A DNA stretch of 51,593 nt, taken from positions 1 to 51,593 of the forward strand of contig JAIXQA010000041.1 of the NCBI GenBank assembly GCA_027485915.1, read 5' to 3'. The translations under genes were made by a program, and so were the position numbers. The stretch comes from Alphaproteobacteria bacterium. GTDB taxonomy: Bacteria > Pseudomonadota > Alphaproteobacteria > Caulobacterales > Aquidulcibacteraceae. The notes under the pieces are model-generated. The model was given only the letters and a program-made list of their open reading frames with translations, had not been told where the DNA came from and did no database searches. Shown here piece by piece: positions 5,522 through 51,278 of this stretch. How positions within the stretch are numbered: the first letter of the stretch is position 1; every line of letters begins with the position of its first letter.

Positions 5522-5594
5522 GTTGGTCTCCCGAATACGGCAACGCGTGCATTCTTTGCGTAATGGCATGCGCAATCCCCACATGGCCGTCAAG

Positions 5595-20477: not shown

Positions 20478-21617
20478 CTAGGTTTGCTCCGATAACTGGG
20501 ACGTCTTGCGCTGCCCTTGGACGTCGAACTGGCGGGTCAAAGTACGCCATAGTTCGCTCGTAAACTTCCAAATCACTTCACGTGGGAAATCGAGCGCGGT
20601 GTCACAAAGGGCTATCAACATTTGTGTCCGGTGCGGCCATTCAAGATCTGCATCGGATGCCCGCAGGACCATTCTTGCCAGCACTTCGTCCGAGAATAGG
20701 CGCTTTGTCTTTGCAGGTTCTGCGAGTTGCAGTGGGAATTTTGCTCCAAACACGACTTCAACAGCGCGCGTTGCCAAGCAGAGCGTTTGCATCAACCCTT
20801 GTTCTTTGGCGATCCGAATAACATCTTCAGCGTCTGCTTTGCTAATTCTCCCGAATGCCTTCGCAAGGTCTGCCGCATATTTTCCGCTGCTTTCACGATG
20901 AACCATGGCTTTGACGAGGCTCAGCGCGGCTAGCAAGATATTTTCCTTTAGTTCCAGAGAATAGCAAGGGATGCTCCCAACCAGTTGGGTTGTTGCCCTC
21001 TTGAGAAAGAAGTCCTTCTCCCGTGGCCCGGGGCAACCGGGCTGCTGAGTCCGATGATGTAAATCTACGGCCAGATAGCTAGAGTCCGGCGGTAGCAAAT
21101 GCTGCTCACCCAAGAAAAACCACCACCATGTTGATTTACATTCATCGGCAAGCTTAAAGCCATGCTGCTCCAATATGGTACGAGCAGGCTTAAAATCGCT
21201 AAAGGTCACGTAGAGGTCAAGATCTGTAGCATGTTTGACGAAGTAGTCACCGTAAATGACATGCTGGGATAGCGCACCTTTAAAAAATGCGGCTTGGATT
21301 CCCTGCTTTGCCAGTGCGCGCGCAACAAGGCGCGCTGTCTGTAATAAGCAGGAGTTTCGTTGGAAGCAGAGTTGCTGGTAAGCGTCTAGGGCTTTCTTGA
21401 GGGTCGGCGGCAATACTGTTCCTGTAAGCTTCGAGGTCTTCAGAACATGCGTAGCTAACCGGTTTTCAAAAACGATAGCTTGGACAAGATCCAAACTGGC
21501 GGCGGAAACATTATTCCAGTTCACAGGGTCAAATGACGTCACGCCAAGAGATGGGCCTACGGCTGCCGCAACAATCTGAAGTTCTACAGCTTTCAATACA
21601 TTATTCCCAAAGAACAA
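20478..21617 (-). CDS. Nucleotidyltransferase family protein (NTP_transf_5, PF14907 type)
   Basis: A 379-residue soluble protein. The centre carries the family signature: AAFFKGALSQHVIYGDY (Lys and Tyr region), then HATDLDLYVTFSDF with the D-x-D metal-binding pair of the polymerase-beta superfamily, then VDLHHR. The rest is helical. PF14907 proteins occur in exopolysaccharide clusters and beside lasso peptide kinases, where I recall that a member modifies the phosphorylated C-terminus. Substrates are mostly unproven. The start is uncertain: TTG 21617 or TTG 21593 (GGGA 8 nt upstream); no in-frame ATG is near. It heads a minus-strand operon with two glycosyltransferases, and a lasso operon with an HprK-like kinase lies 25 kb downstream. 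Confidence 0.82.
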   Translation of the reverse strand: MFFGNNVLKAVELQIVAAAVGPSLGVTSFDPVNWNNVSAASLDLVQAIVFENRLATHVLKTSKLTGTVLPPTLKKALDAYQQLCFQRNSCLLQTARLVARALAKQGIQAAFFKGALSQHVIYGDYFVKHATDLDLYVTFSDFKPARTILEQHGFKLADECKSTWWWFFLGEQHLLPPDSSYLAVDLHHRTQQPGCPGPREKDFFLKRATTQLVGSIPCYSLELKENILLAALSLVKAMVHRESSGKYAADLAKAFGRISKADAEDVIRIAKEQGLMQTLCLATRAVEVVFGAKFPLQLAEPAKTKRLFSDEVLARMVLRASDADLEWPHRTQMLIALCDTALDFPREVIWKFTSELWRTLTRQFDVQGQRKTSQLSEQT

Positions 21618-37402: not shown

Positions 37403-37419
37403 CTGGCATAATATTTGCT
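37403..37419 (+). promoter_or_regulatory. Candidate sigma-54 (RpoN) promoter for the export operon
   Basis: CTGGCATAATATTTGCT fits YTGGCACGRNNNTTGCW at every defined position except two (T for C and A for G after TGGCA). GG-N10-GC spacing is exact, so a start near 37430 is expected. It is the best match of the five. The region 37064-37402 upstream is AT-rich, holds no gene, and offers space for an enhancer-binding activator. Confidence 0.7.
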
Positions 37420-37456
37420 AGATTTTCTTAAGTTTATTGGTCGAGGAGTTGACCCT

Positions 37457-38137
37457 GTGTTTTTTATCCAAAGTGACCTGAAAAAAATGCCAGCATCCGT
37501 AGAGCAGGTTCCTGAAATATCCAGCTACTCGAATTCCCCTATGAAGCGCGCTTTTGATGTTGTGGTGTCCGGAACAGCGCTTGTGTTTCTCGTGCCTTTC
37601 CTGTTGTTTTTATATGCTGTTGTAAGAATTGAAGGCGGAGCACCAGCGCTATTTCGGCATACGCGAATCGGTCGCAATGGTAGAGCGTTTTCTTGCCTCA
37701 AATTTCGAACGATGGTGGTCGACGCGGATCGCCGCTTGGAAGAATTGCTGCGTGACCCGGTCGTTGCTGCAGAATGGCGCGAGACCCAAAAACTCCGGAA
37801 TGACCCTCGGATTACTCGAATCGGACGATTCTTGCGCCGCACAAGCTTGGATGAGCTTCCACAATTGTGGAACATTTTCGTCGGCGATATGAGTTTGGTT
37901 GGGCCGCGTCCGGTGACCCGCACTGAGCTTAGCCGTTATGGCGCAATCGTTGGCTGCTATTTGGCCGTAAGACCTGGCCTGACCGGCCCGTGGCAAGTTG
38001 GCGGTCGCTCTAACACGACATTTAGTTACCGCGTGGAGCTTGATCGACGCTATTCAGTCAATTCTTCTTTCTTCGGGGACATTGGTTACTTGTTCAAAAC
38101 GGTTCGGGTGGTCTTTGGCGATAGATCTGCTGCTTAA
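37457..38137 (+). CDS. Phosphoglycosyl transferase, ExoY-like (undecaprenyl-phosphate sugar-1-P transferase)
   Basis: A 226-residue monotopic membrane enzyme that starts repeat-unit synthesis. GTG 37457 has a strong GAGGAG (37443-37448) 8 nt upstream. The longer frame opening at TTG 37415 begins inside the -12 box of the candidate promoter and would precede the transcript start, so it was rejected. The re-entrant helix (VVVSGTALVFLVPFLLFLYA) is followed by LFRHTRIGRNGRAFSCLKFR, DELPQLWNIFVGDMSLVGPR and RPGLTGPWQVGGRSNTTF. The SNTTFSYRVELDRRYS ending matches ExoY-type galactose-1-phosphate transferases, though the sugar is not certain. It is the first gene of the export region. Confidence 0.92.
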   Translation: MFFIQSDLKKMPASVEQVPEISSYSNSPMKRAFDVVVSGTALVFLVPFLLFLYAVVRIEGGAPALFRHTRIGRNGRAFSCLKFRTMVVDADRRLEELLRDPVVAAEWRETQKLRNDPRITRIGRFLRRTSLDELPQLWNIFVGDMSLVGPRPVTRTELSRYGAIVGCYLAVRPGLTGPWQVGGRSNTTFSYRVELDRRYSVNSSFFGDIGYLFKTVRVVFGDRSAA

Positions 38138-38303
38138 CAGAAAGATTGGCATCCCAAGCAATCAATAAAGATTGATCTGATGGGTGCGGAGTATTTTTGG
38201 TAGTTGGAACGTGCTATCAGGTCGAGACAAAAGAGGTTGTGCCTGAATTGACTACACGTCAGTCATGCGCCGTTCAGCCAAAAAGGTTAATTCTCGGCAG
38301 TTG

Positions 38304-38320
38304 TTGGCATAAGAAATGCT
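38304..38320 (+). promoter_or_regulatory. Candidate sigma-54 (RpoN) promoter upstream of the exporter gene
   Basis: TTGGCATAAGAAATGCT shares TTGGCATAA with the ExoY promoter family and keeps the 10-nt GG-to-GC spacing. A start near 38331 leaves a leader of about 205 nt before the exporter ATG. The 399-nt gap (38138-38536) otherwise holds only small open frames with no coding character; a TGACT...AGTCA inverted repeat at about 38249-38265 could be a regulator site. Confidence 0.55.
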
Positions 38321-38536
38321 GGCTACCTGAACGTGGTTCTTTGCCGACGAATGCGTGGAACCATAACTCTAGGGCGGTCAGCCAGTCTAACGGTGATCTG
38401 GCCATGCTGCCTTTGGGAATAACGTTTGAATGAGACTGGTACTCTTTAGTCAGAACGACGACGGTAGGCAGGCAAAACGCACAAAAAGCGATGGCCTGAG
38501 TAATGCCGGACAAAAAGAACGAGGTGGAGTGAAATA

Positions 38537-39688
38537 ATGTCGAGCAATCATTCTGGGTGTTTCTCGGTGAACCATAGGTGGTTTGGGCCTATACTGCGCA
38601 GAGTTCAGTCGCTGTGTCTGATAGCCTTACTGACCGCTACGATTGTGGCCGGTGCGGCTCCCACTGATGCGCTCGCGCAAACCACCCAGCTGAGGTCTGA
38701 GATTTCTCTGTCTGGTCAGAGTGGGGCCTGGGTGCAAGCTGTAACCCCGGCTCAGCCGGTTGCCGCAACCGTGGTGGAAGCAGCCGGGGCTGACGAATAT
38801 GTTTTATCCCCGAATGACAAACTGAAAATTACGGTGTTCGGCGAAGAAGACTTGTCTGGCGAATTTGTTGTTGATGCTACGGGTAATGTCTCAATCCCTT
38901 TGATCGGCGAAGTTCGCGCAGCGGGTACTTCCTTGCGTGCTTTTCAACGGAATATCGAAGCCCGGTTGCGTGCGGGCTATCTGGTCGATCCACGCGTGAG
39001 CGCAGAAATTCTGAACTTCCGCCCGTTCTATGTTCTGGGCGAAGTAAAGAATCCCGGAGAATATGCTTACACTTCCGGCCTAACCCTGTTGAATGCGATC
39101 GCACAAGCAGGCGGTTTCACGCCACTTGCAAACACCTCAACGATTGCCATCAAGCGTCCAGGCGCTGAAGGTGAGCTGCGGGCTGTCGTTCAGGCAGGGA
39201 TGCCGATCTCTCCGGGAGATACGCTGCGCGTCGAGAAGGCTGCGGTCTATATCATCGGTGAAGTGAAGCGGCCCGGTGAATATCCTATCCCGCCTGGACT
39301 GAATCTTGTGACGGCCGTTGCACAGGCTGAGGGTTACACTGACCTGGCCGACCTCAATCGAGTTTTTGTAAAGCGTGCTGGCAGCAATGTCGAAGTCGCA
39401 ATGCCAGTATCAACGGGTGCTTTGGTTCAGCCTGGCGACACGTTGCGCGTCGGCAGGGCGTCTTTCTTCATTTTGGGCGAAGTGAATCGACCCGGCGAAT
39501 ATCCTGCGCCAGAGAATTTAACGGTGAATAATGCAGCCGCAATCGCTGGAGGATTCACGTTCCGTGCAGATACCAAACGCATTTGGTTGCGTCGTTCTGG
39601 TGAGTTAGAAGAGAAACGAGTCAAGATCACAGACTCGCTTGTTATTCGCCAAGGTGACACTATTCGAATAGCCGAGCGCTTCTTCTAA
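38537..39688 (+). CDS. Polysaccharide export outer-membrane protein (Wza-like) with three SLBB repeats
   Basis: A 383-residue exported protein. A long signal segment (about residues 20-48, LCLIALLTATIVAGAA...DALAQ) precedes the Poly_export domain (YVLSPNDKLKITVFGEEDLS, then VSIPLIGEVRAAGTS). Three soluble ligand-binding beta-grasp repeats follow with a period of 70-73 residues, each opening with the same phrase: GEVKNPGEY (about 171), GEVKRPGEY (241) and GEVNRPGEY (314). No lipobox Cys is seen, unlike E. coli Wza. It should form the periplasm-to-outer-membrane channel together with the kinase at 41685. GGAG sits 9 nt before the ATG. Confidence 0.95.
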   Translation: MSSNHSGCFSVNHRWFGPILRRVQSLCLIALLTATIVAGAAPTDALAQTTQLRSEISLSGQSGAWVQAVTPAQPVAATVVEAAGADEYVLSPNDKLKITVFGEEDLSGEFVVDATGNVSIPLIGEVRAAGTSLRAFQRNIEARLRAGYLVDPRVSAEILNFRPFYVLGEVKNPGEYAYTSGLTLLNAIAQAGGFTPLANTSTIAIKRPGAEGELRAVVQAGMPISPGDTLRVEKAAVYIIGEVKRPGEYPIPPGLNLVTAVAQAEGYTDLADLNRVFVKRAGSNVEVAMPVSTGALVQPGDTLRVGRASFFILGEVNRPGEYPAPENLTVNNAAAIAGGFTFRADTKRIWLRRSGELEEKRVKITDSLVIRQGDTIRIAERFF

Positions 39689-39736
39689 ACTCAATGAGAA
39701 TGCAGGTTGCGGCCTTTTTGTCACTTTCTTTATTTC

Positions 39737-39753
39737 GTGGCATCGCAAATGCA
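39737..39753 (+). promoter_or_regulatory. Candidate internal sigma-54 (RpoN) promoter
   Basis: GTGGCATCGCAAATGCA retains TGGCA and ATGCA with the required 10-nt GG-to-GC spacing. It lies in the 184-nt gap after the exporter gene and would start transcription near 39764, about 109 nt before the small exported protein gene. It would give the barrel, kinase and downstream genes their own start. Confidence 0.5.
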
Positions 39754-39872
39754 TATTTTCCTATGCAATCATATGTCGTCAGTACAAAATCGGTGACTTG
39801 GTAAACATTGTCGTGTAACTACAGTCAGTACCATAATTTTGTTTTTTAATTCCTCGAGCAGGAGCGTACGCC

Positions 39873-40310
39873 GTGTTCAAATTTCTCTCAGTCGTGGCCG
39901 TATCCTTTGTGGCGGTAACATCGGCTTACGCCGCAGAGACGGTGCAGTCCTTGGCGAGCAAAATCGTTGCGGCCGCAGCAGCGGCGGAAGCTTCGGGCTC
40001 TGACTTGGCCAGTGCAATCAATTTGACCATTGAAACTTCTGGCGCGACGCCAGATACGATCAATAGAGCTGTGAATTCCTTGCTCAACCAATGCCCTTCG
40101 GGGGAATTGATGCGCGAGTTGATGAAGCGGCCCGGTGCTAAACCGCCGACCTTTTGCTTGGAAGATGCTCAGGCCGCTTTGCGTGCGCAGCGCGCGACGG
40201 CTTTGGCGTTACTCGGCACCGGCGCGACCGGTGCTACTGCTGGTGGCACCAATTTACCAACACCTCCAACCGGCGGAACCTCGGGCTCTGGCTCTGATTA
40301 TCAGCCGTAA
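39873..40310 (+). CDS. Small secreted protein of unknown function in the export operon
   Basis: A 145-residue protein with a Sec signal (MFKFLSVVAVSFVAVTSAYA, cut after AYA). The mature part is a helical, Ala-rich region (ASKIVAAAAAAEASGSDLAS), then a compact segment with two Cys (LLNQCPSGELMRELM and PPTFCLEDAQAAL), then a Gly/Thr-rich tail that should be unstructured. The Cys pair may form a disulfide in the periplasm. I do not recognise the family. GTG 39873 has AGGAG 8 nt upstream. It lies between the exporter and barrel genes and is 48 nt before the latter, so a role in the export complex is likely but unproven. Confidence 0.75.
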   Translation: MFKFLSVVAVSFVAVTSAYAAETVQSLASKIVAAAAAAEASGSDLASAINLTIETSGATPDTINRAVNSLLNQCPSGELMRELMKRPGAKPPTFCLEDAQAALRAQRATALALLGTGATGATAGGTNLPTPPTGGTSGSGSDYQP

Positions 40311-40358
40311 GATAAAATTTGGCCGCAAGCGCCCAAAAGTTAAGATCGAGGGACACCT

Positions 40359-41654
40359 ATGAAATACCAATTGTTGTTAGCTGCGGCGGTTGTTGGCCTG
40401 CCGACATTTGCAAGTGCGCAAATCGTCAACCCAAACCCGGGCGTCGTAGACAGCGGTTTCCGGCTGAAGTTTGAAGACCGGGGCAATAACACCTCGGTCC
40501 GCGAGCGCGCGCGTCCTGACTATGATCCCGTTGGCATCCGGATCGGCAGCTTTATGTTGCGTCCAACTTTGGATGTCGAAGTTTTCAACACCGATAACGT
40601 TTTACGAGATGACACCAACCAAGAAGAAGCTACTGGGACGATTCTTCGCCCAAAGTTTCGACTGAATTCAAATTGGTCAAATCATTCGCTGGAAGTCTAT
40701 GGTGGTCTCTCGCGGACCGACGTCCCAGATTATGATTCGGAAAGCGTCGGCGAAGTTGAGTTTGGTGCCTCAAGCCGTCTCGACATTCAGCGCGGTTCCA
40801 ATATTCAGGCAGCAGTGCGCTATTTCGCTGGCCGTGAAGCGCGCGGTTCAATCGGCACAGTTGCTGACACTGTCGAGCCGATTGAATATGATGAATTGAC
40901 CGGAACCTTAGCAGGGATCTGGGAAGTAAACCGTGTTCGTGCTTCTGCACGCGTCGACATGTCGCGGCTGAACTATGAAGATGGCTTACTTCAGTCCGGT
41001 GGCGTAGCAAATCAAGATGATCGCGACCGCACGACCAACAGCTTTACGTTGCGCTCTGATTATGCCCTCAGCCCGTCGTTCGCGCTGTTTGCCCAATATT
41101 CCTGGGACACGCGTGACTATAAGGCTGTCAGCGCACCATTTGTTTCTCGTAATTCCAAGGGCGAAACTGGCTTGGCCGGTGCGAACTTTGATATCGGGGA
41201 TCTAGCACGGGGCGAAATCGGCATTGGCTATGTGAAACAAAATTACGAGGCACCTGTTTATGGCGATACGGACGGCTTTGGCTATCGTGCCGCCGTTGAG
41301 TGGTTCCCAAGCCCTCGTTTAACCGTTGCCGCAACCGCATCGCGTTCGGTGGAGGATTCAGCAGTTGCTGGATCGGGCGGTGCTTTGAATTCGGGTATGG
41401 GTCTGCAATTTGACTATGAGCTGCGTCGCAACATCATTTTGACCGCCAAATCCACAAGCGTCGAAGCGGAATATACGGGTTTTGGCCGAACCGATCGGCG
41501 TGTCACCCATTCGTTAACGGGTGCATACCTTCTGAACCGCAATGCTGCACTGTCGGCAAGCGCAGTAAAGAGTGATTTATACTCCTCGGGCCCGCGTTCC
41601 GGCCCAGAATATGCTGAGTGGAGATTCTGGTTGCGCTTAGCTTTGCGCATGTGA
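40359..41654 (+). CDS. Outer-membrane beta-barrel protein (BBP2/PF10082 type)
   Basis: A 431-residue outer-membrane protein with a Sec signal (MKYQLLLAAAVVGLPTFASA). The phrase RPDYDPVGIRIGSFMLRPTL, followed by EVFNTDNVLRDDT, is the start of the putative beta-barrel porin 2 family. The rest alternates polar and hydrophobic residues in strands, closing WRFWLRLALRM. Members sit in exopolysaccharide operons of alphaproteobacteria beside Wza/Wzc homologues and may form the outer-membrane exit or a glycan-binding barrel; the function is not settled. GAGGGA precedes the ATG. It is 30 nt upstream of the kinase gene. Confidence 0.9.
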   Translation: MKYQLLLAAAVVGLPTFASAQIVNPNPGVVDSGFRLKFEDRGNNTSVRERARPDYDPVGIRIGSFMLRPTLDVEVFNTDNVLRDDTNQEEATGTILRPKFRLNSNWSNHSLEVYGGLSRTDVPDYDSESVGEVEFGASSRLDIQRGSNIQAAVRYFAGREARGSIGTVADTVEPIEYDELTGTLAGIWEVNRVRASARVDMSRLNYEDGLLQSGGVANQDDRDRTTNSFTLRSDYALSPSFALFAQYSWDTRDYKAVSAPFVSRNSKGETGLAGANFDIGDLARGEIGIGYVKQNYEAPVYGDTDGFGYRAAVEWFPSPRLTVAATASRSVEDSAVAGSGGALNSGMGLQFDYELRRNIILTAKSTSVEAEYTGFGRTDRRVTHSLTGAYLLNRNAALSASAVKSDLYSSGPRSGPEYAEWRFWLRLALRM

Positions 41655-41684
41655 ACCAAAATGAACCAGAGTGTGGAGTAAATA

Positions 41685-43898
41685 ATGTCCGATGCGGGTT
41701 CGCAGGCCTACGTTGACACGCCGAGGCGTGTCAACGAAACAGTTGATGATCAGTCTTTTGGTGCATTGTTAGAGAGCGTCTATGCGTTTTTCCAGCGACG
41801 CCGCTTAGTTCTTATTGGTTTTGTCCTTTTTGGTCTGCTTCTGGGGATTCTAAAGACAGTTACAACCTCGCCAGTTTATATGGCGAGCACCTCTGTCGTG
41901 ATTGAAAGCAAAGAGTCTCAGATTTCTGGTGTTCAAGTTGAACAGTCTAAATCCATCGCATCGACGACTGTCGACGGCGAGGTTCAGGCTTTAACGTCTC
42001 CAGATTTAATGGAGCGAGTTGTAATCGAGCAGAATCTTGTCCAAGATCCTGAATTCAATCCATTTTTGGCTGCTCGCATCGCGAATGCCGCTGCAGATCC
42101 ATCCAAGGTGCCGCCACGCGTATCGCCAGAGCGCGAGCTACGTGCCACCGTCCAAGTATTCGCCTCGCACATCAGTGCCCGCCGGCAGGGCCTTAGCTTT
42201 GTCATTGCCATTACCGCACGCTCGAAAAATGCCGTGAAAGCAGCAAAGCTAGCTGACGCGATGGCACGCGGTTATTTGGCGAGCCAGTTGGATGCTAAGC
42301 TTCTCAGCACGCGCCAAGCAAGCACGTGGCTGCAGCAACAAGTTGATAGCCTAAAGAAGGAGCTCGAGAAGCAGTCAGCGGCCGTCCAGGCAGAGCGGGC
42401 TTCGAGTGGCATGATGTCGGGCACTGGCGAAGGCAGCGTTGCTGACCAGCAAGTGCGCGCTTTGTCCGCGCAGCTTTCCCAAGCGCGTGCGGACCTTGCT
42501 GCCCGTGAAGCACGTTTCGGATCGAGTGCAAGCCTTGGTGCCGGCGCAGCATCGGCAAGCGAAGTGCTTTCGTCGCCTGTTATCCAAGGTTTGCGCCAAC
42601 GTGAGTCGGAGGCAAATCGTAAGATTAGTGAATTGTCCATTCGCTTTGGCCCTGCCCACCCTCAGATGCAGTCTGCCCGCCAAGAAAAGGCTGATATTGA
42701 GCGCCAAATCCAACAAGAGACCGCACGAATTGTTCGCGGTAATTCAAGTGAATTGGATGTGGCCCGTCGCAGCGTTGCGTCTTTGCAAGCTGACTTGAAC
42801 CGTTGGACCAATGCATTGGCCGATGACACTCGTCGTGCATCGCGGCTCCAACAGCTTGAAGGGCAAGCTGAAGCAACTCGAACAACGTATCAAAATTATG
42901 TCACACGTTTGCAGCAAGTTACCGACCTCGAAAAGCTGCAGCGCCCAGATGCACGTATTATTGCAAAGGCGTCTGTTCCAGGTCGTCCTAGCTCACCCGT
43001 GCCGGCTTTTGACCTTGCTCTGGGCCTCATCCTTGGCTCGATCTTGGCCATTTCTGTCGCCGCTGTGCTCGAGTTCTTGCAGCGTGGCTTAAGAACCCTG
43101 CAGGCTGTCGAAAGCGCAAGCAGCCTTCCAGGATTGGTGTCGATTCCGGCTTTGACAAAGCGAGAGCTTAAAGAGCTTCGTGCAAACTCCGCTCTGGGTC
43201 CTGCCGATTATATTACTCGGAAGCCGCTCTCAATCTATTCGGAGGCGTTTCGTAAGCTCCGCGCGGATCTGATGCTAGGAAATTCGAGTGGCAAGGCACC
43301 ACAAGTGGTCCTGTTTACCTCGGCCTTGGCCGGTGAAGGCAAGTCTACGACAGCGCTTGCTTTCGCGCGGACCATGGCTCAAGCTGGGGCGTCCACCCTC
43401 CTTGTGGAGGCCGATCTTCGCCGACCCTCCATTGCTGCGGTAGCCGGCCTTGAGCCCAGCCTCGCCCTTACCGATGTCATTATGCAGCCTGGGCTTCTAA
43501 ACCAGGCAGTTTTGCCAGACCCAATCAGCACTCTGAGCATTCTGCCGTCTTTGCCCGTCGGCGGTCGTTCTGGCGTGGATCAAGCCCTTGAGAGCTTTAA
43601 AGGCTTTATCGAGAGCTTGCGCCAGCAATATGATTTCATTGTTATTGATACCGCGCCGGTGCTCGCCGTTGCTGAAACCCAGCTAATGACCACATGCGCC
43701 GACGCAGTTGTGTTGGTTGTTCGCTGGGATAGAGCCACACGCGATGCGGTTCGGTTGGCGTCCAAAGCGATCTCGACACCGACTTATCAAATTCGCGCAT
43801 CCATTCTAAATGGCGTTAATCTTGAGCTTCAGTCGCGGTATCTCAGCGGTGATACGGCGTCTTACTATGCTTATAACAAAGCATATTATGCTGAGTGA
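41685..43898 (+). CDS. Polysaccharide co-polymerase/tyrosine autokinase (Wzc-like BY-kinase)
   Basis: A 737-residue inner-membrane protein that sets chain length and drives export with the Wza-like protein. Order: a Wzz domain with first helix LVLIGFVLFGLLLGILKTV (about 40-58), a long periplasmic coiled coil (about 190-420), GRPSSPVPAFDLALGLILGS into the second helix (about 440-465), then the cytoplasmic kinase. Walker A is SALAGEGKSTTALAFA (about 545-560); Walker A' is LLVEADLRRPS, where Glu stands in place of the first Asp of the usual D-x-D; Walker B is DFIVIDTAPVLAV. The C-terminus is a tyrosine cluster (ASYYAYNKAYYAE) that is the autophosphorylation site in the family. GGAG precedes the ATG. 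Confidence 0.95.
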   Translation: MSDAGSQAYVDTPRRVNETVDDQSFGALLESVYAFFQRRRLVLIGFVLFGLLLGILKTVTTSPVYMASTSVVIESKESQISGVQVEQSKSIASTTVDGEVQALTSPDLMERVVIEQNLVQDPEFNPFLAARIANAAADPSKVPPRVSPERELRATVQVFASHISARRQGLSFVIAITARSKNAVKAAKLADAMARGYLASQLDAKLLSTRQASTWLQQQVDSLKKELEKQSAAVQAERASSGMMSGTGEGSVADQQVRALSAQLSQARADLAAREARFGSSASLGAGAASASEVLSSPVIQGLRQRESEANRKISELSIRFGPAHPQMQSARQEKADIERQIQQETARIVRGNSSELDVARRSVASLQADLNRWTNALADDTRRASRLQQLEGQAEATRTTYQNYVTRLQQVTDLEKLQRPDARIIAKASVPGRPSSPVPAFDLALGLILGSILAISVAAVLEFLQRGLRTLQAVESASSLPGLVSIPALTKRELKELRANSALGPADYITRKPLSIYSEAFRKLRADLMLGNSSGKAPQVVLFTSALAGEGKSTTALAFARTMAQAGASTLLVEADLRRPSIAAVAGLEPSLALTDVIMQPGLLNQAVLPDPISTLSILPSLPVGGRSGVDQALESFKGFIESLRQQYDFIVIDTAPVLAVAETQLMTTCADAVVLVVRWDRATRDAVRLASKAISTPTYQIRASILNGVNLELQSRYLSGDTASYYAYNKAYYAE

Positions 43899-43957
43899 TG
43901 GTGCGCAGTCACACCGATTTGCAACTCCGATAAAGAACCATTTGAAGGTGTCTAGCG

Positions 43958-45004
43958 GTGTCTAAAGTCACGAGCGAGCGGGTCGATGTCACATGCGTCA
44001 TCGCTTCCTATAACACGCTGCGCTATTTAGAATCCGCCGTCGAATCCGCACTCGCTCAGCAAGGGGTGTCGGTTGAAGTTATCATTGTCGACGACGGCTC
44101 GAAGGATGGAAGCTATGAGTTGGCAAAGCAGCTTGCAGCGCGAGACTTACGCGTCCGTTGCTTCCAAACGCCAACCAACCAAGGCCCAAGTGGTGCACGT
44201 AACCTCGCACTCGATAATGCTCGAGGTGAGTGGATCAGCATTTTGGATAGTGATGACTTGGTCCACCCCGGTCGTGCCGCTTCTTTGATTGCGTTGGCTG
44301 AGGAGAAGCAGGCTGACTTGGTCTCCGATGATATGCTTGTTTTTCAAGAGGACGATGGGCAACTTGTATCTGTTGAGAGATTTCTGCCATTAGAAGGATC
44401 ACAAAACAGTTTTGAACTTTCATTAGTTGACTATCTTAGACCGTCATCTTTATTTCGGCGTTCACCAGAGTTCGGCTATCTGAAGCCGCTTTTCCGCGCC
44501 AGCAGTCTTGCTGACCTGCGCTATAATCCAAACCTCCGCATCGCAGAGGACGATGACTTGATTGTGCGATTATTGTTGCAGGGCGCGAAGTATTGGGTTT
44601 CGAAAAGGGCTTTATACTTTTACAGGAAGCATAATGCTTCGATTTCGCATCGACTAAGTCTTGAGAATTTAGAGCTCATGATCGCCTCTAACCGAGCCCT
44701 AGCGCCACGTTTGGAGTCCCATGGCCTGCCCTGTTCAGCTTTCTGGGATGGCCGATGGAAGCAATGGATGCGTTTTAGGGCCTTCACAAAATGGGTGCTG
44801 GCGGTCAAAGGGAAAGACTATTTGGAGGCTTTGCGCCTTTTGTTCCAATTCCCAAGCCTAGCACTCTGGTTCCATGCTCCTATTTGGGCGGCTATTAAAC
44901 GAGCCTTCAACCTCGGTGTACATCTGCCGGCCAAATCTGTGCCGGAAACAGTCGATCTTCCATTGCGTCAACGCCTTGAAACATTTGCTGATTACTCAGC
45001 ATAG
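43958..45004 (+). CDS. Glycosyltransferase family 2
   Basis: A 348-residue GT-A enzyme. VTCVIASYNTLRYLESAVES and VEVIIVDDGSKDGSYELAKQ form the UDP-sugar site, WISILDSDDLVHPGR is the metal-binding D-x-D (about residue 95), and RIAEDDDLIVRLLLQG is the catalytic-base region. A basic C-terminal segment (FWDGRWKQWMRFRAFTKWVL) may lie on the membrane. GTG 43958 has AAGGTG 8 nt upstream. It is 59 nt after the kinase gene and is the last gene of the export operon; an 829-nt AT-rich gap follows. Confidence 0.9.
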   Translation: MSKVTSERVDVTCVIASYNTLRYLESAVESALAQQGVSVEVIIVDDGSKDGSYELAKQLAARDLRVRCFQTPTNQGPSGARNLALDNARGEWISILDSDDLVHPGRAASLIALAEEKQADLVSDDMLVFQEDDGQLVSVERFLPLEGSQNSFELSLVDYLRPSSLFRRSPEFGYLKPLFRASSLADLRYNPNLRIAEDDDLIVRLLLQGAKYWVSKRALYFYRKHNASISHRLSLENLELMIASNRALAPRLESHGLPCSAFWDGRWKQWMRFRAFTKWVLAVKGKDYLEALRLLFQFPSLALWFHAPIWAAIKRAFNLGVHLPAKSVPETVDLPLRQRLETFADYSA

Positions 45005-45759
45005 ACATCGGCGCGCGACGTAAGGTGAAAGCTGATTTTGATCTGCAGATTTCTGAAAAAAATCTGAAGCGCAGGAGCTTTCTCCCACTCCGAGCGACAC
45101 TCAGATCCGTGCCGTCATAGGGTCTATTCGACCCCAGCCACGTCAATAGCTAGGGCTGATGCGATGTCACACGTTGGGATAATAATCTCGAGGAAAGCAC
45201 AAAGCTCTGCCTCGAATCACCTGGCCGTAAAGCCCCTATCAAAGGCTTCCAGCGGCTTGAAACACCGCTCGCCACTCCATTGGCGTCAAGCAGTTTGCCG
45301 ATTAGGCGACACTCCGTTCTTCATTGTTTCATATTTGTCACGCTTCCCACGATCGATGCTTCTCGCAAGGATTTGCTGCAGCGCAACATGCCTGAGCCAA
45401 ATATTATAGGCCTATGAGAGTCAATTTTGCGAGAATAATGAGATTTATCCCACAACGCCGCGCCTGCATTCTTATTTGGCAGAAAAGAGCATCGTTAATT
45501 TCGAAAGATATACTGATTTCGTTGATCGGTCGATTTACTTTTATTTTGAGATATAGCAATTGTTTCAGGTTAATATTTTATAATATACCGAACAGAGGAA
45601 TGTATAAAAGTCCGACTTATTGGTAAATTCGAATATTGGTTATTTCGCCTCTATAGCTTATTATCGTTTTTGAGCATAATTCGCCTATTTGGCTATTTTT
45701 TAATATTGATTTTCTCAGAAAATTATTGTACACAGCATTGCGATAACTCATTTTTATCC
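45005..45759. other. Long non-coding, partly AT-rich region before the lasso operon
   Basis: About 750 nt without a credible gene. The first 400 nt have normal composition and several short frames broken by stops in every frame, consistent with decayed coding sequence that I cannot identify. From about 45410 to 45759 the sequence is strongly A/T-rich. No -24/-12 element with correct spacing was found. A boundary between two independently acquired blocks is plausible. Confidence 0.5.
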
Positions 45760-45788
45760 TTGACTTAACAGACCCTTGTCCTTACTCT
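45760..45788 (+). promoter_or_regulatory. Candidate sigma-70 promoter of the lasso operon
   Basis: TTGACT (45760-45765) is followed after 17 nt by TACTCT (45783-45788), with CTAAAA just after. The -35 is one base from consensus; the -10 is weak. The expected start near 45795 leaves a leader of about 40 nt before the precursor ATG, whose ribosome-binding site is GAGG at 45825-45828. Confidence 0.5.
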
Positions 45789-45833
45789 AAAACCGTGAAG
45801 CGTTCATCCAGGGCGTTTCCAAATGAGGTATTT

Positions 45834-45977
45834 ATGATGACCAAAGAAGTATACAGCGCTCCAGAAGTTGAAACCCTGGGTTCTTTCGAAGCTCTGACCC
45901 AAAGCACCAACAGCGGCCCAAACACCGACTTCGCTTACGCGGCTCAAGCTCCATCGATCCTCGGCGCTCTGTCGTAA
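45834..45977 (+). CDS. Lasso peptide precursor (A)
   Basis: A 47-residue ribosomal precursor. The leader carries the lasso recognition signature in YSAPEVETLGSFEALTQ: Tyr7, Pro10 (Y-x-x-P), Val12, Gly16 and the penultimate Thr22. Cutting after Gln23 gives a 24-residue core. Its first nine residues, STNSGPNTD, would close a macrolactam between the Ser1 amine and the Asp9 side chain. The tail, FAYAAQAPSILGALS, threads the ring; Phe10, Tyr12 or Gln15 could be steric plugs. The last residue is Ser, the site used by HprK-like lasso kinases. Start ATG 45834 or 45837, both served by GAGG. The gene is followed by a hairpin, then RRE, peptidase, cyclase, kinase and exporter genes. Ring size is a prediction. 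Confidence 0.9.
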   Translation: MMTKEVYSAPEVETLGSFEALTQSTNSGPNTDFAYAAQAPSILGALS

Positions 45978-45999
45978 GTTTGGTGTAAACCAGCTTTAG

Positions 46000-46030
46000 G
46001 TGACGGCCGGCGCAACCGGTCGTCACTTTT
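46000..46030 (+). terminator. Hairpin attenuator/terminator between lasso precursor and maturation genes
   Basis: GTGACGGCCGG (46000-46010) pairs with CCGGTCGTCAC (46016-46026) through 11 base pairs including one G-U, with loop CGCAA and TTTT after. It sits 22 nt after the precursor stop. Partial termination here would yield more precursor than enzyme mRNA, a common arrangement for ribosomal peptides. Confidence 0.8.
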
Positions 46031-46093
46031 CGTTTGGGTGGGCCTTTCTTTCGCGGATTGAATATCAGGAAGTTGTTTTAGGTGGGCTTCCCT

Positions 46094-46378
46094 ATGCAAA
46101 TTGATAGTAATATTTTGTTTGTGCGGCAGCCTGATGTGGTTGCCTGTGAACTTGGTACTGGCATGGCCCTGTTGAATATGCAGGAAGGCAAGTACTATCG
46201 GTTAAATGATACCGCTAAGCTCATCTGGGATAAGTTGGAAGAGCCGTCGAGTGTCGAGTCTCTCGTGGACTCAATTGTTAACAGATTTGAGATAAGCGTA
46301 GCTGACTGCACGGGCGATGTTGTCGCTGTGGTGACAAAGCTTTGCGAGGATAATCTTGTCCGACAGTTTAGTGCGTGA
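46094..46378 (+). CDS. Lasso B1: PqqD-like RiPP recognition element (leader-binding protein)
   Basis: A 94-residue stand-alone RRE. The fold shows in MALLNMQEGKYYRLNDTAKL, then IWDKLEEPSSVESLVDSIVN and VVTKLCEDNLVRQF, the three-strand plus three-helix PqqD pattern. It should hold the precursor leader (Y-x-x-P region) and deliver it to the B2 peptidase. ATG 46094 has AGGTGGG (46080-46086) 7 nt upstream; GTG 46082 is an alternative. The 3' end overlaps the B2 start by 23 nt. Confidence 0.92.
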   Translation: MQIDSNILFVRQPDVVACELGTGMALLNMQEGKYYRLNDTAKLIWDKLEEPSSVESLVDSIVNRFEISVADCTGDVVAVVTKLCEDNLVRQFSA

Positions 46379-46796
46379 TCTAAGTCGAAAGATTAGATTG
46401 GCCTGCAGCCATGGCCCTTTGCTTGCGGTCAGTTTTTTTTTGGTTGTGATTGTCCGGCTAACTTTAACTTTTCGGGGCCATGCGCCCGTTCTCGCTGAAA
46501 TCCGACGTATTGAAGATCGTGGACTTTTAGGTCCGCGCCAACACACAGTTGCCAGCATCGTCTGGGCGGTTCGCCACACCTCTCGCTTGGTCCCTAAAGC
46601 TACGTGCCTGACCCAATCTCTCGTGGTTCGGCTCTTACTCGCGCGCAGTGGTCATGACAGCCGGATCCGGATCGGCGTTTCCAATTCCAACGATGGAAAA
46701 TTTGAAGCTCACGCATGGGTTTTATATGACGGCTTAATCGTGATTGGGGGCACCGACGAGAGTGTGGCACGCTATATGCCCATGGTAGATTTATGA
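46356..46796 (+). CDS. Lasso B2: transglutaminase-like leader peptidase
   Basis: A 146-residue cysteine peptidase of the Transglut_core3 (PF13471) type. It removes the leader after the penultimate Thr. The catalytic Cys is in KATCLTQSLVVRLLLARSG, the His in FEAHAWVLYDG and the Asp in VIGGTDESV, giving the full triad. A hydrophobic N-terminal stretch (LLAVSFFLVVIVRLTLTF) is typical. TTG 46356 is used because GAGGA (46346-46350) is 5 nt upstream; GTG 46371 lacks this. The gene overlaps B1 by 23 nt and its stop overlaps the cyclase ATG (ATGA), so B1, B2 and C are coupled. Confidence 0.93.
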   Translation: MSDSLVRDLSRKIRLACSHGPLLAVSFFLVVIVRLTLTFRGHAPVLAEIRRIEDRGLLGPRQHTVASIVWAVRHTSRLVPKATCLTQSLVVRLLLARSGHDSRIRIGVSNSNDGKFEAHAWVLYDGLIVIGGTDESVARYMPMVDL

Positions 46797-48580
46797 TCCA
46801 GAGCACATCTACTTATGACGGTGCCGTCATAGACATCTCAAAGCTGGGTTTGACTGCCAACAAAAGCTCAGGCGCGAGCTCCAGTCGATCGGCTCAAGTA
46901 ATTTTCATTTCTTATGCCTTTCGCCTCGACAATCGCGCCGAGGTATTGGCTGAACTCAAGCTGTCCGACCGCGCATCTGACCAAGAGATTCTCGCCGAGG
47001 GTTGGTTGGCTTGGCGCGAGGATCTTGCACATCGACTAAGAGGCGCTTTTGGCTTTGGCGTTTTCGATGCGGCTTCCCGCACAATTTATGTGGCCCGAGA
47101 TATTTTCGGTACAAGCCCCGTCTTCTGGGCCACTGACGAGAGCCAGGTGATCATTGCCGCAAGCAGCAGGGGCACGCGCGCGCTTTTATCATTCTCTCCG
47201 GCCCACAATAAAACCACGTTGGCGGATTTCATCTGTGGTGGGGAAATCCAGCGAGAGCAAACCTTTTTTGAAGGCGTATCGCGGCTTCCGCCGGCACATT
47301 GGATGACCATCGATCAAAGTGGCATCCAAATAACCAGATACTGGTCTTCGGCCGATGTGCCACGAGCCCAGGAAGTGGATAATCCGATCAAGCGATTCCG
47401 CGAACATTTTCAGCGATCAGTCCGAAATTGTTTTTCATCTGGCAAGTCCGTGCTTTTCTTGAGTGGTGGGCTTGATTCGTCGTCCATTGCAGGTGCCCTT
47501 CACGCCGAAGGCGTCACAGTTCCAAGCCTCAGCCTCGTTTATCATGAAACCAAGGATTGGACAGACAAAGCCTATCTTGCCGCTTTGGAAGATGGATTGG
47601 GGATTACGCTTGATGGCACTGCGAGTGATGCGCACAATCCGCTGGAAGATATTTCAAAATGGCTTGCCGTTGTGGATGGGCCATATTTGCCATATGGCCA
47701 TTCAGTATCGAGCCAGCTCCTTCTAAAGGCGCGAGCCTTAGGCTATAAAGTTGTGCTTTCAGGGCATGGCGGGGATGAAATAGTTTCCTACGGCTTTGGT
47801 CGGCTCAATGAGCTCGCCCGCCAAGGTCGATGGCTACGCTTGTGGCGCGAGACACGCGCCGCAGCGGGCCTGTATCACGAGTCGAGGTTTCGGCTGTTCC
47901 GACGCTACCTCAGCCAAATTAATTGGTTCCGCAAAGTCGAGCGTAAGCTTCGCTTTCAGGTCAAAGGCAAAACCTGGTCTGGCCAACAATATATGTCGGA
48001 AGCTTTTGCCAAAACGGTTGATCCCGCGCGATTTCGACGCAAGTTTGCCGGTGAGCGGTTGGATCATGATGAACGCATGATCCATGAGGAAGTCCTAAAT
48101 TCCCCGCTTCAGCCGCTTTCACTAGAAGTGATCGCTACTTGCAGCCATGCAGAAGGCATTGAAACGCGGATGCCCTTCTATGATCGTGAACTTGTTGAGC
48201 TTTCGCTCTCCTTACCCTCTGAATGGAAATTGCGCGAGGGTCTATCGCGCTATATACTTCGGAAGGCCATGGCGGACACATTGCCCCGCGCAGTCGTCCT
48301 GCGACAGGACAAATTTGACTTTACCGACAACTTTAAACGTGGCCTTCTGGAAAATAAGGACGAAGTTCTGGCGCTCACAGATCCTGAAACCCAAAAACTT
48401 AGCGATTGGGTTAACGTCGATCTTCTACAAAACATTAGGTCGCAATTTATGGGGGCTATTGACTCGATTGAGACCGCTGATGCGTTCTTTGTTTGGCGAG
48501 CGGCAGTCCTTGCTACGTGGCTAAAGGTCTCTTCCGAACCTCTGTCTAAGCCGCAATTGCGCGTGATCCAAGAGGGATAG
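46793..48580 (+). CDS. Lasso C: asparagine-synthetase-like lasso cyclase
   Basis: A 595-residue enzyme that adenylates the Asp9 side chain and closes the macrolactam. The N-terminal glutaminase-like domain (about 1-200) has RGAFGFGVFDAASRTIYVAR and DIFGTSPVFW but no Cys at position 2, so it does not use glutamine. The synthetase domain begins at SVLFLSGGLDSSSIAGAL (pyrophosphate loop, about residue 220), then VVLSGHGGDEIVSYGFGR, IETRMPFYDRELVELSLSLP and LRKAMADTLPRAVVLRQDKF. Related asparagine synthetases would keep the N-terminal Cys. It overlaps B2 by 4 nt and precedes the kinase gene by 5 nt. Confidence 0.94.
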   Translation: MIQSTSTYDGAVIDISKLGLTANKSSGASSSRSAQVIFISYAFRLDNRAEVLAELKLSDRASDQEILAEGWLAWREDLAHRLRGAFGFGVFDAASRTIYVARDIFGTSPVFWATDESQVIIAASSRGTRALLSFSPAHNKTTLADFICGGEIQREQTFFEGVSRLPPAHWMTIDQSGIQITRYWSSADVPRAQEVDNPIKRFREHFQRSVRNCFSSGKSVLFLSGGLDSSSIAGALHAEGVTVPSLSLVYHETKDWTDKAYLAALEDGLGITLDGTASDAHNPLEDISKWLAVVDGPYLPYGHSVSSQLLLKARALGYKVVLSGHGGDEIVSYGFGRLNELARQGRWLRLWRETRAAAGLYHESRFRLFRRYLSQINWFRKVERKLRFQVKGKTWSGQQYMSEAFAKTVDPARFRRKFAGERLDHDERMIHEEVLNSPLQPLSLEVIATCSHAEGIETRMPFYDRELVELSLSLPSEWKLREGLSRYILRKAMADTLPRAVVLRQDKFDFTDNFKRGLLENKDEVLALTDPETQKLSDWVNVDLLQNIRSQFMGAIDSIETADAFFVWRAAVLATWLKVSSEPLSKPQLRVIQEG

Positions 48581-48585
48581 ATTAC

Positions 48586-49506
48586 ATGTACAAGTATCAA
48601 GCCTTTGGGATGAGGATTGCAAGCGACGTGCGTCTGGATGAATTGTCGCTGGCCGATGACACTGGCGCGCCCGCCGATCTCCATATTCGGCGGACAAAAT
48701 TGGACTATTCGATCCCAGAGCTCGGGGCCGCTCAGCCGAGCATGGTTTCCGATGACCCTCTAGGGGTTGTCATGATTTGGCCAGGAGCCGCGGCGGTACG
48801 CGTAGTTGGTCCGTCCTTGGTGGAGATCGATACATTTCCGGGCGTCCCCGAAAAATACCTCGCTTTTCCATTATTAGGCCCAGTGATGGGATGGGTTCTG
48901 CATGTGAAGCAGCTATTTGTGCTGCATGCCAGCGCCGTCGTTCATCGAGGCAAAAGCATCGGCTTCATGGGGGATAAAGGGGCTGGAAAATCAACGACCG
49001 CTGCCGCCTTTCTCAGCGACGGGGCACAGATTCTCACCGATGACTTGCTGGCCTTTGAGACGGATAACCCAACCGGGCCGAGGATCTTGCCAGCATTTGC
49101 TCAAGTGAAATTGAATGAGACGTCTGCACGCGAGGTAGCGGTGCACGGCGCAGAGCCGCTCCCCTTAATTATGGAGGGCTTCGAGAAGCGTCAGTTCCGC
49201 TTGCCGTCTATGCACCATCAGCCTGCAGATTGTGATGTTCTGATCGTGTTGGAGCGGGGCCTAGAGGCCCCATCCATTGAATTATTGGATCATTTGTCCG
49301 CTTTAAAGGCCTTAATGCGCTTTAGTTATAATGTCAGATTTTCAGAACTTCCTGTTGTGTTTCAAGAGCGTGAGCGATGCTTTCGCCAAGCGGCGTTCCT
49401 CGCCCAAAAGGTGCGGGTCGCCTGTCTGAAAGTTCCAAACGACATCACACGCTTGCCGGAAACGGTGGAATTCGTACAGAGCCAATTGCAAGCAGGTTTC
49501 CAGTGA
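48586..49506 (+). CDS. Lasso K: HPr-kinase-like protein, probable lasso peptide C-terminal Ser kinase
   Basis: A 306-residue P-loop kinase of the HprK C-terminal-domain type. Walker A is GDKGAGKSTTAAAFLSDG (about residues 129-146), preceded by LHASAVVHRGKSIGFMG, the usual approach strand, and followed by ILTDDLLAF, the metal and base region of the HprK family. Known lasso kinases of this family phosphorylate the C-terminal Ser of the precursor, which matches the Ser ending the core here. It is 5 nt after the cyclase gene and its stop overlaps the exporter start (GTGA). A role in regulation instead of tailoring is unlikely because no phosphotransferase genes are nearby. Confidence 0.9.
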   Translation: MYKYQAFGMRIASDVRLDELSLADDTGAPADLHIRRTKLDYSIPELGAAQPSMVSDDPLGVVMIWPGAAAVRVVGPSLVEIDTFPGVPEKYLAFPLLGPVMGWVLHVKQLFVLHASAVVHRGKSIGFMGDKGAGKSTTAAAFLSDGAQILTDDLLAFETDNPTGPRILPAFAQVKLNETSAREVAVHGAEPLPLIMEGFEKRQFRLPSMHHQPADCDVLIVLERGLEAPSIELLDHLSALKALMRFSYNVRFSELPVVFQERERCFRQAAFLAQKVRVACLKVPNDITRLPETVEFVQSQLQAGFQ

Positions 49507-51278
49507 CCTTGTCAGCGAACCTGCAATTCTTCTGGTATATTTGGCGTCTAACCAAAGGCAGAATTGCGGCGACCGCGCTCTTATCGGTACTTGTGAGCTT
49601 AACGGAGGGCTTGTCCCTCTTCATGCTCATTCCAATTGTAAGCTCGTTAAGCTCGAGCAACGCCAATATCTTTGAGAAAATCCCAATCATCAAAAACTGG
49701 ATACCGCAGTTTGACATTGACCTCTCCGTTATGCTGGTCTTGTTTGTCTTATTGGTTACGTTTCAGGCAGCTTTGGCTCAGTTTAAAATGCTGTATACAC
49801 AGCGTTTAATGCACAAGACCTTGGATCGAGCCCGGCTTATGCTTTTTGAACGCATTAGCATGGCTAACTGGGCAACGATCGCTGGAAAGCGAACCAACGA
49901 CATCAACCATATTCTGCGAACCGAGACCGAGCGGATGCTGAATGCGGCAAACACCGCGCAGACTTTGTTCCAAAGCATTATTTTGTTGGGCGTGTATTTG
50001 ATCGTCGCTGCCGCTGTCTCTTGGCAAATGACCTTGTTTGCGGTGGCCGTCGGCGGGCTTTTATTTGGGGCGCTTTATCCAATCCGGCGTCGCGCCTCAA
50101 ATTTCGGCAAGACCATGACCGTGAGCTTTCAAGAGCAAAATCATATCACCATGGAGTTCATTTCCGGTGTTCGAATTGCGAAGCTCTTTACCGCAGAACA
50201 GCGCCACATCAACGCCTTCGCAAATCAGCTTGAGTCCATTCGCGGCGGTGTTGTCGAGTTTCTGAAGATCAGCTCTCTTGGAACCTTCATATTTCAAGTT
50301 GGGACCGCAGCCATTGCCGCAGGTTTCGTATGGCTATCCATTCGCGTCTTCATGTTGGATATCGCGCAAATCTGCATCATGCTGGTGGTGTTCATTCGAA
50401 TTGCGCCGAGATTCAATTCAATCCAAGAGGCAGTGCAGACCTATTTGACGAATGGCCCGGCATTTATCAGTTACTCTGAAGCGCTCGAATACTTCTCCAG
50501 CAACCAAGAAGAAGATCAAGAAATCTTGGTAAAGCCACCTGGACTAAAAGAGAAGATCGAGCTCCAAGACGTATCCGTCATCTATCATGAGTCAGATCCG
50601 CCATTATTGCACTCAATTGATTTAACAATTCGGGCCGGTCAAATAACCGCTCTGATTGGTCCTTCCGGCAGTGGGAAAAGCACCTTAGCAGATATCCTGC
50701 TGGGTCTAACTTTGCCCAATAAGGGCACGATCACCATTGATGGTATGCCGATTTCAAATGGAAATCGGCGCGCCTGGCGGTCGTCTGTCGCTTGCGTTCC
50801 ACAGGACACCTTCCTCCTTAACGCAACCCTTCGTGCCAATCTGCTGATCGGCCGTGAGACCGCCTCTGAAGCAGATTTGTGGCGGTGCCTAGATCAAGCC
50901 AATATGGGCGATCTGATCAGAAGCCTGCCAGACGGGTTGGATACAAATGCCGGCGACCGTGGCATGCGGTTCTCCGGCGGCGAACGGCAGCGCATCGCGC
51001 TTGCAAGAGCTTTGCTGCGTGAACCGCAATTATTGGTGCTGGATGAAGCGACCAGCGCACTTGATTGGGACAACCAAACCAAGATCACCTCCGCAATTCG
51101 GGCTTTGCGTGGCAAGTTGACGATCGTGACCATTGTGCACAGTGCGGCCCTGGTTGAATTTGCCGACGAAGTGATTGCCTTAGAAGCTGGTAGGGTCATC
51201 TCGCAGGGTAGTTATGCCGATCAAAAGAATGACCCGGATAGCCCGCTCTCTCGGATGCTTGCGTCGGACGGCCAATAG
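49503..51278 (+). CDS. Lasso D: ABC exporter (type I, fused membrane and ATPase domains)
   Basis: A 591-residue half-transporter that should work as a homodimer to pump the mature lasso peptide out of the cytoplasm, giving self-immunity. The membrane domain has six helices (about 20-310). The ATPase holds Walker A LIGPSGSGKSTLADIL, Q-loop CVPQDTFLLNATL, signature FSGGERQRIALARALLREPQ, Walker B LLVLDEATSALDW and the switch His in TIVTIVHS. No C39 peptidase domain is present, as expected because B2 removes the leader. GTG 49503 overlaps the kinase stop by 4 nt; a frame from ATG 49377 would lie inside the kinase gene and begins with non-membrane sequence, so it was rejected. Confidence 0.94.
   Translation: MTLSANLQFFWYIWRLTKGRIAATALLSVLVSLTEGLSLFMLIPIVSSLSSSNANIFEKIPIIKNWIPQFDIDLSVMLVLFVLLVTFQAALAQFKMLYTQRLMHKTLDRARLMLFERISMANWATIAGKRTNDINHILRTETERMLNAANTAQTLFQSIILLGVYLIVAAAVSWQMTLFAVAVGGLLFGALYPIRRRASNFGKTMTVSFQEQNHITMEFISGVRIAKLFTAEQRHINAFANQLESIRGGVVEFLKISSLGTFIFQVGTAAIAAGFVWLSIRVFMLDIAQICIMLVVFIRIAPRFNSIQEAVQTYLTNGPAFISYSEALEYFSSNQEEDQEILVKPPGLKEKIELQDVSVIYHESDPPLLHSIDLTIRAGQITALIGPSGSGKSTLADILLGLTLPNKGTITIDGMPISNGNRRAWRSSVACVPQDTFLLNATLRANLLIGRETASEADLWRCLDQANMGDLIRSLPDGLDTNAGDRGMRFSGGERQRIALARALLREPQLLVLDEATSALDWDNQTKITSAIRALRGKLTIVTIVHSAALVEFADEVIALEAGRVISQGSYADQKNDPDSPLSRMLASDGQ

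Follow-up and report, generated by a model that had tools for sequence, protein, structure and literature searches.

A predicted kinase-type lasso peptide operon, a nucleotidyltransferase gene and a polysaccharide locus form a recurrent unit in Alphaproteobacteria

Contig JAIXQA010000041.1 of an alphaproteobacterium of the family Aquidulcibacteraceae (order Caulobacterales; assembly GCA_027485915.1) carries six lasso peptide genes, all open, in the order A-B1-B2-C-K-D at positions 45834-51278. The window analyzed here is the entire contig, 51593 nt of a 3.31-Mb draft genome, and ends 315 nt past D. By its sequence, the operon falls among the phosphorylated lasso clusters of the paeninodin/SyanA type, an already known kind, and its core peptide is of an unremarkable type. 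More interesting is that lasso operon, nucleotidyltransferase gene (here called N) and polysaccharide locus recur as a unit, through which the role of these peptides becomes testable. We hold it almost certain from the predicted genes that the operon makes a lasso peptide and very likely that the product is phosphorylated on its terminal serine; the two taken jointly are likely. The genes of the operon are predicted as follows.

45834-45977, plus strand: A, lasso precursor of 47 amino acids (NCBIfam lasso models just under cut-off; a 68% identical precursor in locus L020).
46094-46378, plus strand: B1, predicted PqqD-like leader-binding protein (Pfam PqqD, 1.1e-16).
46371-46796, plus strand: B2, predicted leader peptidase (Pfam Transglut_core3, 2.1e-22; NCBIfam lasso_biosyn_B2, 87.9 bits against a cut-off of 33).
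46793-48580, plus strand: C, predicted macrolactam cyclase of the asparagine synthase type (Pfam Asn_synthase, 1.2e-40; GATase_7, 1.1e-12).
48586-49506, plus strand: K, predicted HPr-kinase-like lasso kinase (invariant catalytic residues; HprK_rel_A, 2.5e-7, 30.1 bits against a cut-off of 200).
49503-51278, plus strand: D, predicted ATP-binding cassette (ABC) exporter (Pfam ABC_tran, 1.7e-33; ABC_membrane, 1.4e-11).

The genes are tightly packed: B1 overlaps B2, B2 overlaps C by 4 nt, and K starts 5 nt after the stop of C. The frame of D is open from 49377; we chose GTG at 49503 as the most likely start, which gives a 4-nt overlap with the stop of K. A profile search of the whole draft genome returned a single B2, that of the operon. 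A preliminary description of this DNA had proposed a complete lasso operon with this gene order, these overlaps and intact catalytic motifs. Open frames and family matches bear out the order and overlaps, and the motifs are indeed intact, with the K residues invariant in relatives and the B2, C and D families matched.

Scanning named genomes yielded 158 confirmed relatives, and the best 80 were retained. With five more loci, 85 were analyzed, among which L020/L036 and L021/L045 are the same contigs taken twice. Chance or decayed open reading frames (ORFs) are ruled out by the open frames, the family matches and the gene order conserved in relatives, since 74 of the 85 related loci show A-B1-B2-C-K-D in one pass. 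The remaining 11 reflect contig ends, the sorting of overlapping long ORFs, a missed B1 or precursors outside the search pattern, and three of these pattern-missed precursors (L111, L038 and L040) were later recovered. A foreign base composition of the operon is likewise ruled out: its GC content and GC at third codon positions (GC3) are similar to those of neighboring genes, with K slightly higher in GC3 (58.3), and the AT-rich part is confined to the upstream stretch 45300-45790 (36% GC).

The predicted core peptide, STNSGPNTDFAYAAQAPSILGALS, has 24 residues and no cysteine, follows a leader with Thr at -2, and would form a ring between Ser1 and Asp9. Both Thr(-2) and Asp9 are as expected for a lasso precursor. 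Serines occupy core positions 1, 4, 18 and 24, and the calculated lasso mass is 2334.11 Da. Asp9 is present in all 83 K-type precursors (the window included, two duplicate contigs removed, L100 lacking a precursor). The window precursor scores 18.1 of 19 bits and 23.5 of 33 bits against two NCBI precursor models, just below both cut-offs, and automatic annotation may therefore overlook it. The earlier impression that the core is new stands uncontradicted, as the core was absent as a string from the open-licence literature searched. Among the relatives, core position 1 is His in L111 (6099-6299) and Asn in L021 (4305-4568, Asticcacaulis), compared with the usual Gly, Ala, Ser or Cys. The cores of L064, L114 and L115 each hold two cysteines, one in the ring and one in the tail, so that a disulfide is possible in these kinase-type peptides.

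K retains the catalytic residues of a lasso kinase. His114, Gly129, Lys135, Ser136, Asp152 and Asp153 occur unchanged in all 26 of the 26 sequences compared and throughout a second, more divergent set of 15. The His-Lys-Asp-Asp motif is described as essential in lasso kinases (PMC9266682, in the part available), and the accessible text on BsfK (PMC10368454) indicates that the matching residues matter for that kinase, whose residue spacing K shares. Because K keeps the His/Lys/Asp/Asp of known lasso kinases, we place the operon with the phosphorylated clusters. The +80 Da form that had been suggested as possible for the product fits the conserved residues. Comparison of K with solved structures gave weak P-loop matches only.

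The likely target of K emerges from the precursors. A C-terminal Ser ends 82 of 83 K-type precursors and 41 of the 42 distinct cores, and none of the 16 further positions tallied holds a fixed Ser (ring positions 1-9 and the rest of the last eight, the middle positions being outside the tally). As a control, we took 20 fused-B lasso loci, the top-scoring B2 matches outside K-type loci that had no match to the K profile, all drawn from the one order. Twelve of these loci gave 16 candidate precursors, one of them (L158) doubtful, and eight gave none; 0 of the 16 end in Ser. Because the terminal Ser tracks K-type precursors and not K-less candidates, phosphorylation of the C-terminal Ser is the best inference.

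The second member of the unit lies far from the operon in the window.

20478-21617, minus strand: N, PF14907 nucleotidyltransferase, probable distant member of the pathway (Pfam NTP_transf_5, 2.5e-27; co-occurrence with K).

Residues K113, G114, D132, D134 and H187 of N are invariant in 25 of 25 sequences. Across the order, PF14907 (E<=1e-15) occurs in 14 of 14 genomes in which K was detected versus 5 of 384 others (Fisher p 5e-22, kinship ignored). Within the 60 genomes of the window's family, seven have a strong PF14907 match (E below 1e-20), three more are borderline and just pass the cut-off, and five weaker ones fail. These seven coincide with the genomes that have K-type or split-B lasso clusters; the K search identified five of them, and an HprK-related gene beside lasso genes the other two (G067 and G077). 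N is present in 78 of 82 K-type loci, the four without it being contigs of 4.5-12.3 kb; its position is upstream, on the opposite strand, in 73 of the 78. One relative carries N and B2 fused in a single protein (L031:2752-4383, NTP_transf_5 plus Transglut_core3), and N lies near K in Paenibacillus and in the archaeon Halopiger as well. In the latter, the Halopiger xanaduensis plasmid pHALXA01 (L183) carries a lasso B2, PqqD, asparagine synthase, ABC exporter, K relative and PF14907 gene near a flippase and sulfatases. With this co-occurrence, N probably acts on the operon's peptide.

The third member is the polysaccharide locus itself.

37415-45004, plus strand: polysaccharide synthesis and export genes by Pfam (sugar transferase, Poly_export, BBP2_2 porin, Wzz/AAA_31, glycosyltransferase 2).

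As queries we used 21 window proteins (13911-45004), six of them including N checked by Pfam and the rest judged by position and by eye. These match the flanks of all K-type loci but one (81 of 82; L087, the exception, is a contig of 4.5 kb) versus 0 of 20 fused-B loci. As the K-type loci extended further, both sets were then restricted to 4 kb from the lasso genes, with distance taken from the locus center for controls without BLAST-visible lasso genes. With N excluded, a polysaccharide gene remains in 79 of 82 K-type loci (all except L040, L041 and L087) versus 0 of 20 fused-B loci; counted by genus-level group, 19 of 20 have one. Pfam families point the same way. Among the first 25 of 50 families in 106 flanking ORFs (109 picked) from 14 K-type loci, the commonest are glycosyltransferase 2, NTP_transf_5 (11), GH16, O-antigen ligase, Poly_export and Wzz. 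For the 20 controls, with 67 flanking ORFs (79 picked), the first 25 of 29 families hold no polysaccharide family; the commonest include TonB receptors, autoinducer synthase and, once, an S9 peptidase. In 5 of 7 K-type genomes of the family, B2 has a Wzc homolog no more than 30 kb away on its contig, versus 0 of the 32 other B2 matches, contig breaks masking some distances. K-type lasso genes also sit amid annotated polysaccharide genes on two plasmids (Paracoccus and Sulfitobacter), and a Priestia plasmid has a paeninodin-family cluster near galU. The adjacency to an exopolysaccharide operon had been described correctly, but that operon was treated as a mere neighbor and N was overlooked, and both recur in this operon type. 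A functional link between peptide and polysaccharide is slightly favored by this setting.

In the pathway we infer, B1 would hold the leader peptide, and K would place a phosphate on the hydroxyl of the C-terminal Ser24 when the precursor is still linear. B2 would then cut off the leader, C would close the ring by joining the Ser1 amine to Asp9, and D would export the product. N probably attaches a further group, for instance a hexose, to the phosphate, in the way reported for the pseudomycoidin nucleotidyltransferase, and the product is likely to act within or on the exopolysaccharide of its own cell. A bolder version, in which the phosphorylated lasso peptide belongs specifically to the exopolysaccharide system and N and the glycosyltransferases of the locus build sugar on the terminal Ser phosphate, seems to us unlikely. 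If true, a phosphodiester would link the knotted peptide to the polysaccharide, and the peptide would serve there as an end group resistant to proteases, an anchor or a primer.

Several observations weigh against this pathway or its setting. HprK-related models match K far under their cut-off (HprK_rel_A, 30.1 bits versus 200). One K-type precursor, L024 (13121-13273, minus strand), was found to end in Ser-Asn, and the known lasso kinase BsfK targets Ser3 rather than a terminal Ser, as far as its report was available (PMC10368454). N is unusually distant in the window, 24 kb upstream of the operon with polysaccharide genes between. Five genomes have N but no K in the K-profile search (G067, G077, G026, G146 and G181); G067 and G077 do carry an HprK-related gene, and in G026 a lasso B2 lies about 4 kb from N. 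The polysaccharide setting is seen in only 4 of 11 loci among the more distant K clusters of the order and in 2 of 5 plasmid K loci, counts in which the queries may miss distant genes. Mesorhizobium accounts for 59 of the 82 K-type loci.

K is patchily distributed, detected at E<=1e-5 in 14 of 398 genomes of the order, the window's own included. In a quick tree of 52 K rows with several long branches, the window's K falls in a six-row group (Shimodaira-Hasegawa-like approximate likelihood ratio test 99) together with Erythrobacter, Aurantiacibacter, Blastomonas and one genome from a different family of the order. It is placed apart from the K of its congener G043, which suggests lateral spread. 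A megablast search of a plasmid collection returned no close plasmid copy of the operon. The distant K relatives L029:709-1695, L031:6618-7736 and L034:5261-6475 lie beside a sulfotransferase, a methyltransferase-like protein and a 2-oxoglutarate-Fe(II) oxygenase, and possibly belong to other tailored peptides.

Antimicrobial activity is common among lasso peptides, and the product could be an ordinary antimicrobial, the polysaccharide locus a hot spot of gene turnover and N a part of polysaccharide synthesis. The patchy occurrence of K and its suggested lateral spread would fit. So would congener G067 (L175:1836-9434), where a differently ordered lasso-like cluster, N, D, B1, C, B2 and HprK-related, and not this operon, lies behind the Wzc homolog. 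We consider this explanation rather unlikely, although it is the most serious of those weighed here. Against it, the fused-B clusters of the same order lie outside such loci (0/20, and 0/32 for B2 matches near a Wzc homolog). Moreover, PF14907 tracks K and not polysaccharide genes: Wzc homologs occur in 43 of the 60 family genomes, strong PF14907 matches in only 7.

The two other alternatives concern the operon itself. K might phosphorylate a ring residue such as Ser4 instead of the C-terminal Ser, a possibility raised by the Ser3 precedent of BsfK and by the additional serines of the window core; the near-invariance of the terminal Ser among distinct cores, with no Ser fixed at the other tallied positions, makes this improbable. 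It is about as improbable, or slightly more so, that the operon is intact but silent, or productless in nature. That idea draws on the lack of a plus-strand sigma-70-like site upstream and on two precedents from the accessible parts of their reports: the bsf cluster is silent in the laboratory (PMC10368454), and native P. alginolyticus clusters gave no visible product (PMC13381572). The frames of our operon are nevertheless all open, its overlaps kept and its catalytic residues conserved.

The regions around A add two candidate regulatory features.

45760-45788, plus strand: weak promoter-like pair TTGACT / TACTCT, read by eye and unreported by the scan.
45998-46028, plus strand: 13-bp hairpin separating A from B1 (folding z -4.3 over the first 60 nt past A and -3.7 over 76 nt).

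The suggestion that the operon begins with its own promoter fares poorly. TTGACT lies at 45760-45765, its -10 partner at 45783-45788 matches 3/6 by eye, and a sigma-70-like scan of 45000-46100 found no site on the plus strand and one on the minus strand, with 2.2 expected. Upstream of A there is one two-copy 14-nt repeat and no inverted repeat. The number of hairpins after A (one site) is no higher than in shuffled sequences. When the 60 nt downstream of A were folded for 24 chosen loci, 12 had z below -3 (12 of 18 non-rhizobial, 0 of 6 rhizobial) versus 0 of 192 control windows, and the hairpins of relatives are unrelated in sequence. It is plausible that such a hairpin favors A over the enzyme genes, though not all loci have one. 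No Rfam RNA family was found at gathering scores.

Within the reach of the window, which ends shortly after D, the operon has no isopeptidase or TonB gene, in agreement with the preliminary description. For the isopeptidase this extends to the whole draft genome, where the best match (49.6 of 400 bits) stays under the cut-off; no genome-wide search was made for TonB, sigma and anti-sigma genes. The protein encoded at 3320-5593 was considered as a lasso isopeptidase and rejected, being a prolyl oligopeptidase with Peptidase_S9_N and S9 domains.

That this setting recurs beyond Bacilli, alongside a matching nucleotidyltransferase and judged against a control group, opens a question to experiment in tractable alphaproteobacteria, for example Mesorhizobium and Sphingomonas: whether the peptide itself, or a form that bears sugar, is part of the matrix. 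In the open-licence literature listings searched, we found no report of a polysaccharide setting of K-type lasso loci in Alphaproteobacteria. By term search, none of these genes is named in a Sphingomonas exopolysaccharide paper, and in an Erythrobacter pan-genome paper lasso peptides and exopolysaccharide come up only in separate passages.

The sources compared below were available in part, and the comparisons hold for those parts. Lasso peptides that end in Ser and are phosphorylated have been established for Firmicutes and Sphingobium (PMC9266682, PMC8498205). The window shares with the paeninodin (PadeK), ThcoK and Sphingobium yanoikuyae SyanK systems an HPr-kinase-like K with His-Lys-Asp-Asp, split B1/B2, an exporter D and a Ser-terminated precursor; it differs in core sequence (the SyanA core was outside the comparison) and in having N 24 kb away. 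Pseudomycoidin is reported to be phosphoglycosylated, with the kinase PsmK and the nucleotidyltransferase PsmN, its hexosylation being nucleotidyltransferase dependent (PMC9266682, PMC8498205). The window likewise has a kinase and a nucleotidyltransferase-type gene in the same genome region, the likeness to PsmN being one of gene type, but here N is unlinked from the operon.

The bsf cluster of Bradymonas sediminis (PMC10368454) has A, B1, B2, C, D, K and a nucleotidyltransferase N in common with the window, and its B1 aids both K and B2. BsfK acts on Ser3 of a precursor with leader Ile at -2, whereas the window has Thr at -2 and a terminal Ser. In rumen Firmicutes, kinases, nucleotidyltransferases and glycosyltransferases lie beside lasso genes (PMC7533575). 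In Bacilli, paeninodin-like clusters with an HprK kinase and a nucleoside triphosphate (NTP) transferase are co-located with capsule loci; a biofilm role is only speculated, and the biological role of paeninodin-type peptides is stated as unknown (PMC13381572). The same report describes linear polyphosphorylated peptides that have no cyclase and use a signal-peptidase-like protease. Like those Bacilli clusters, the window has kinase, NTP transferase and lasso genes amid polysaccharide genes, but its C is present and intact, which places it outside the linear family.

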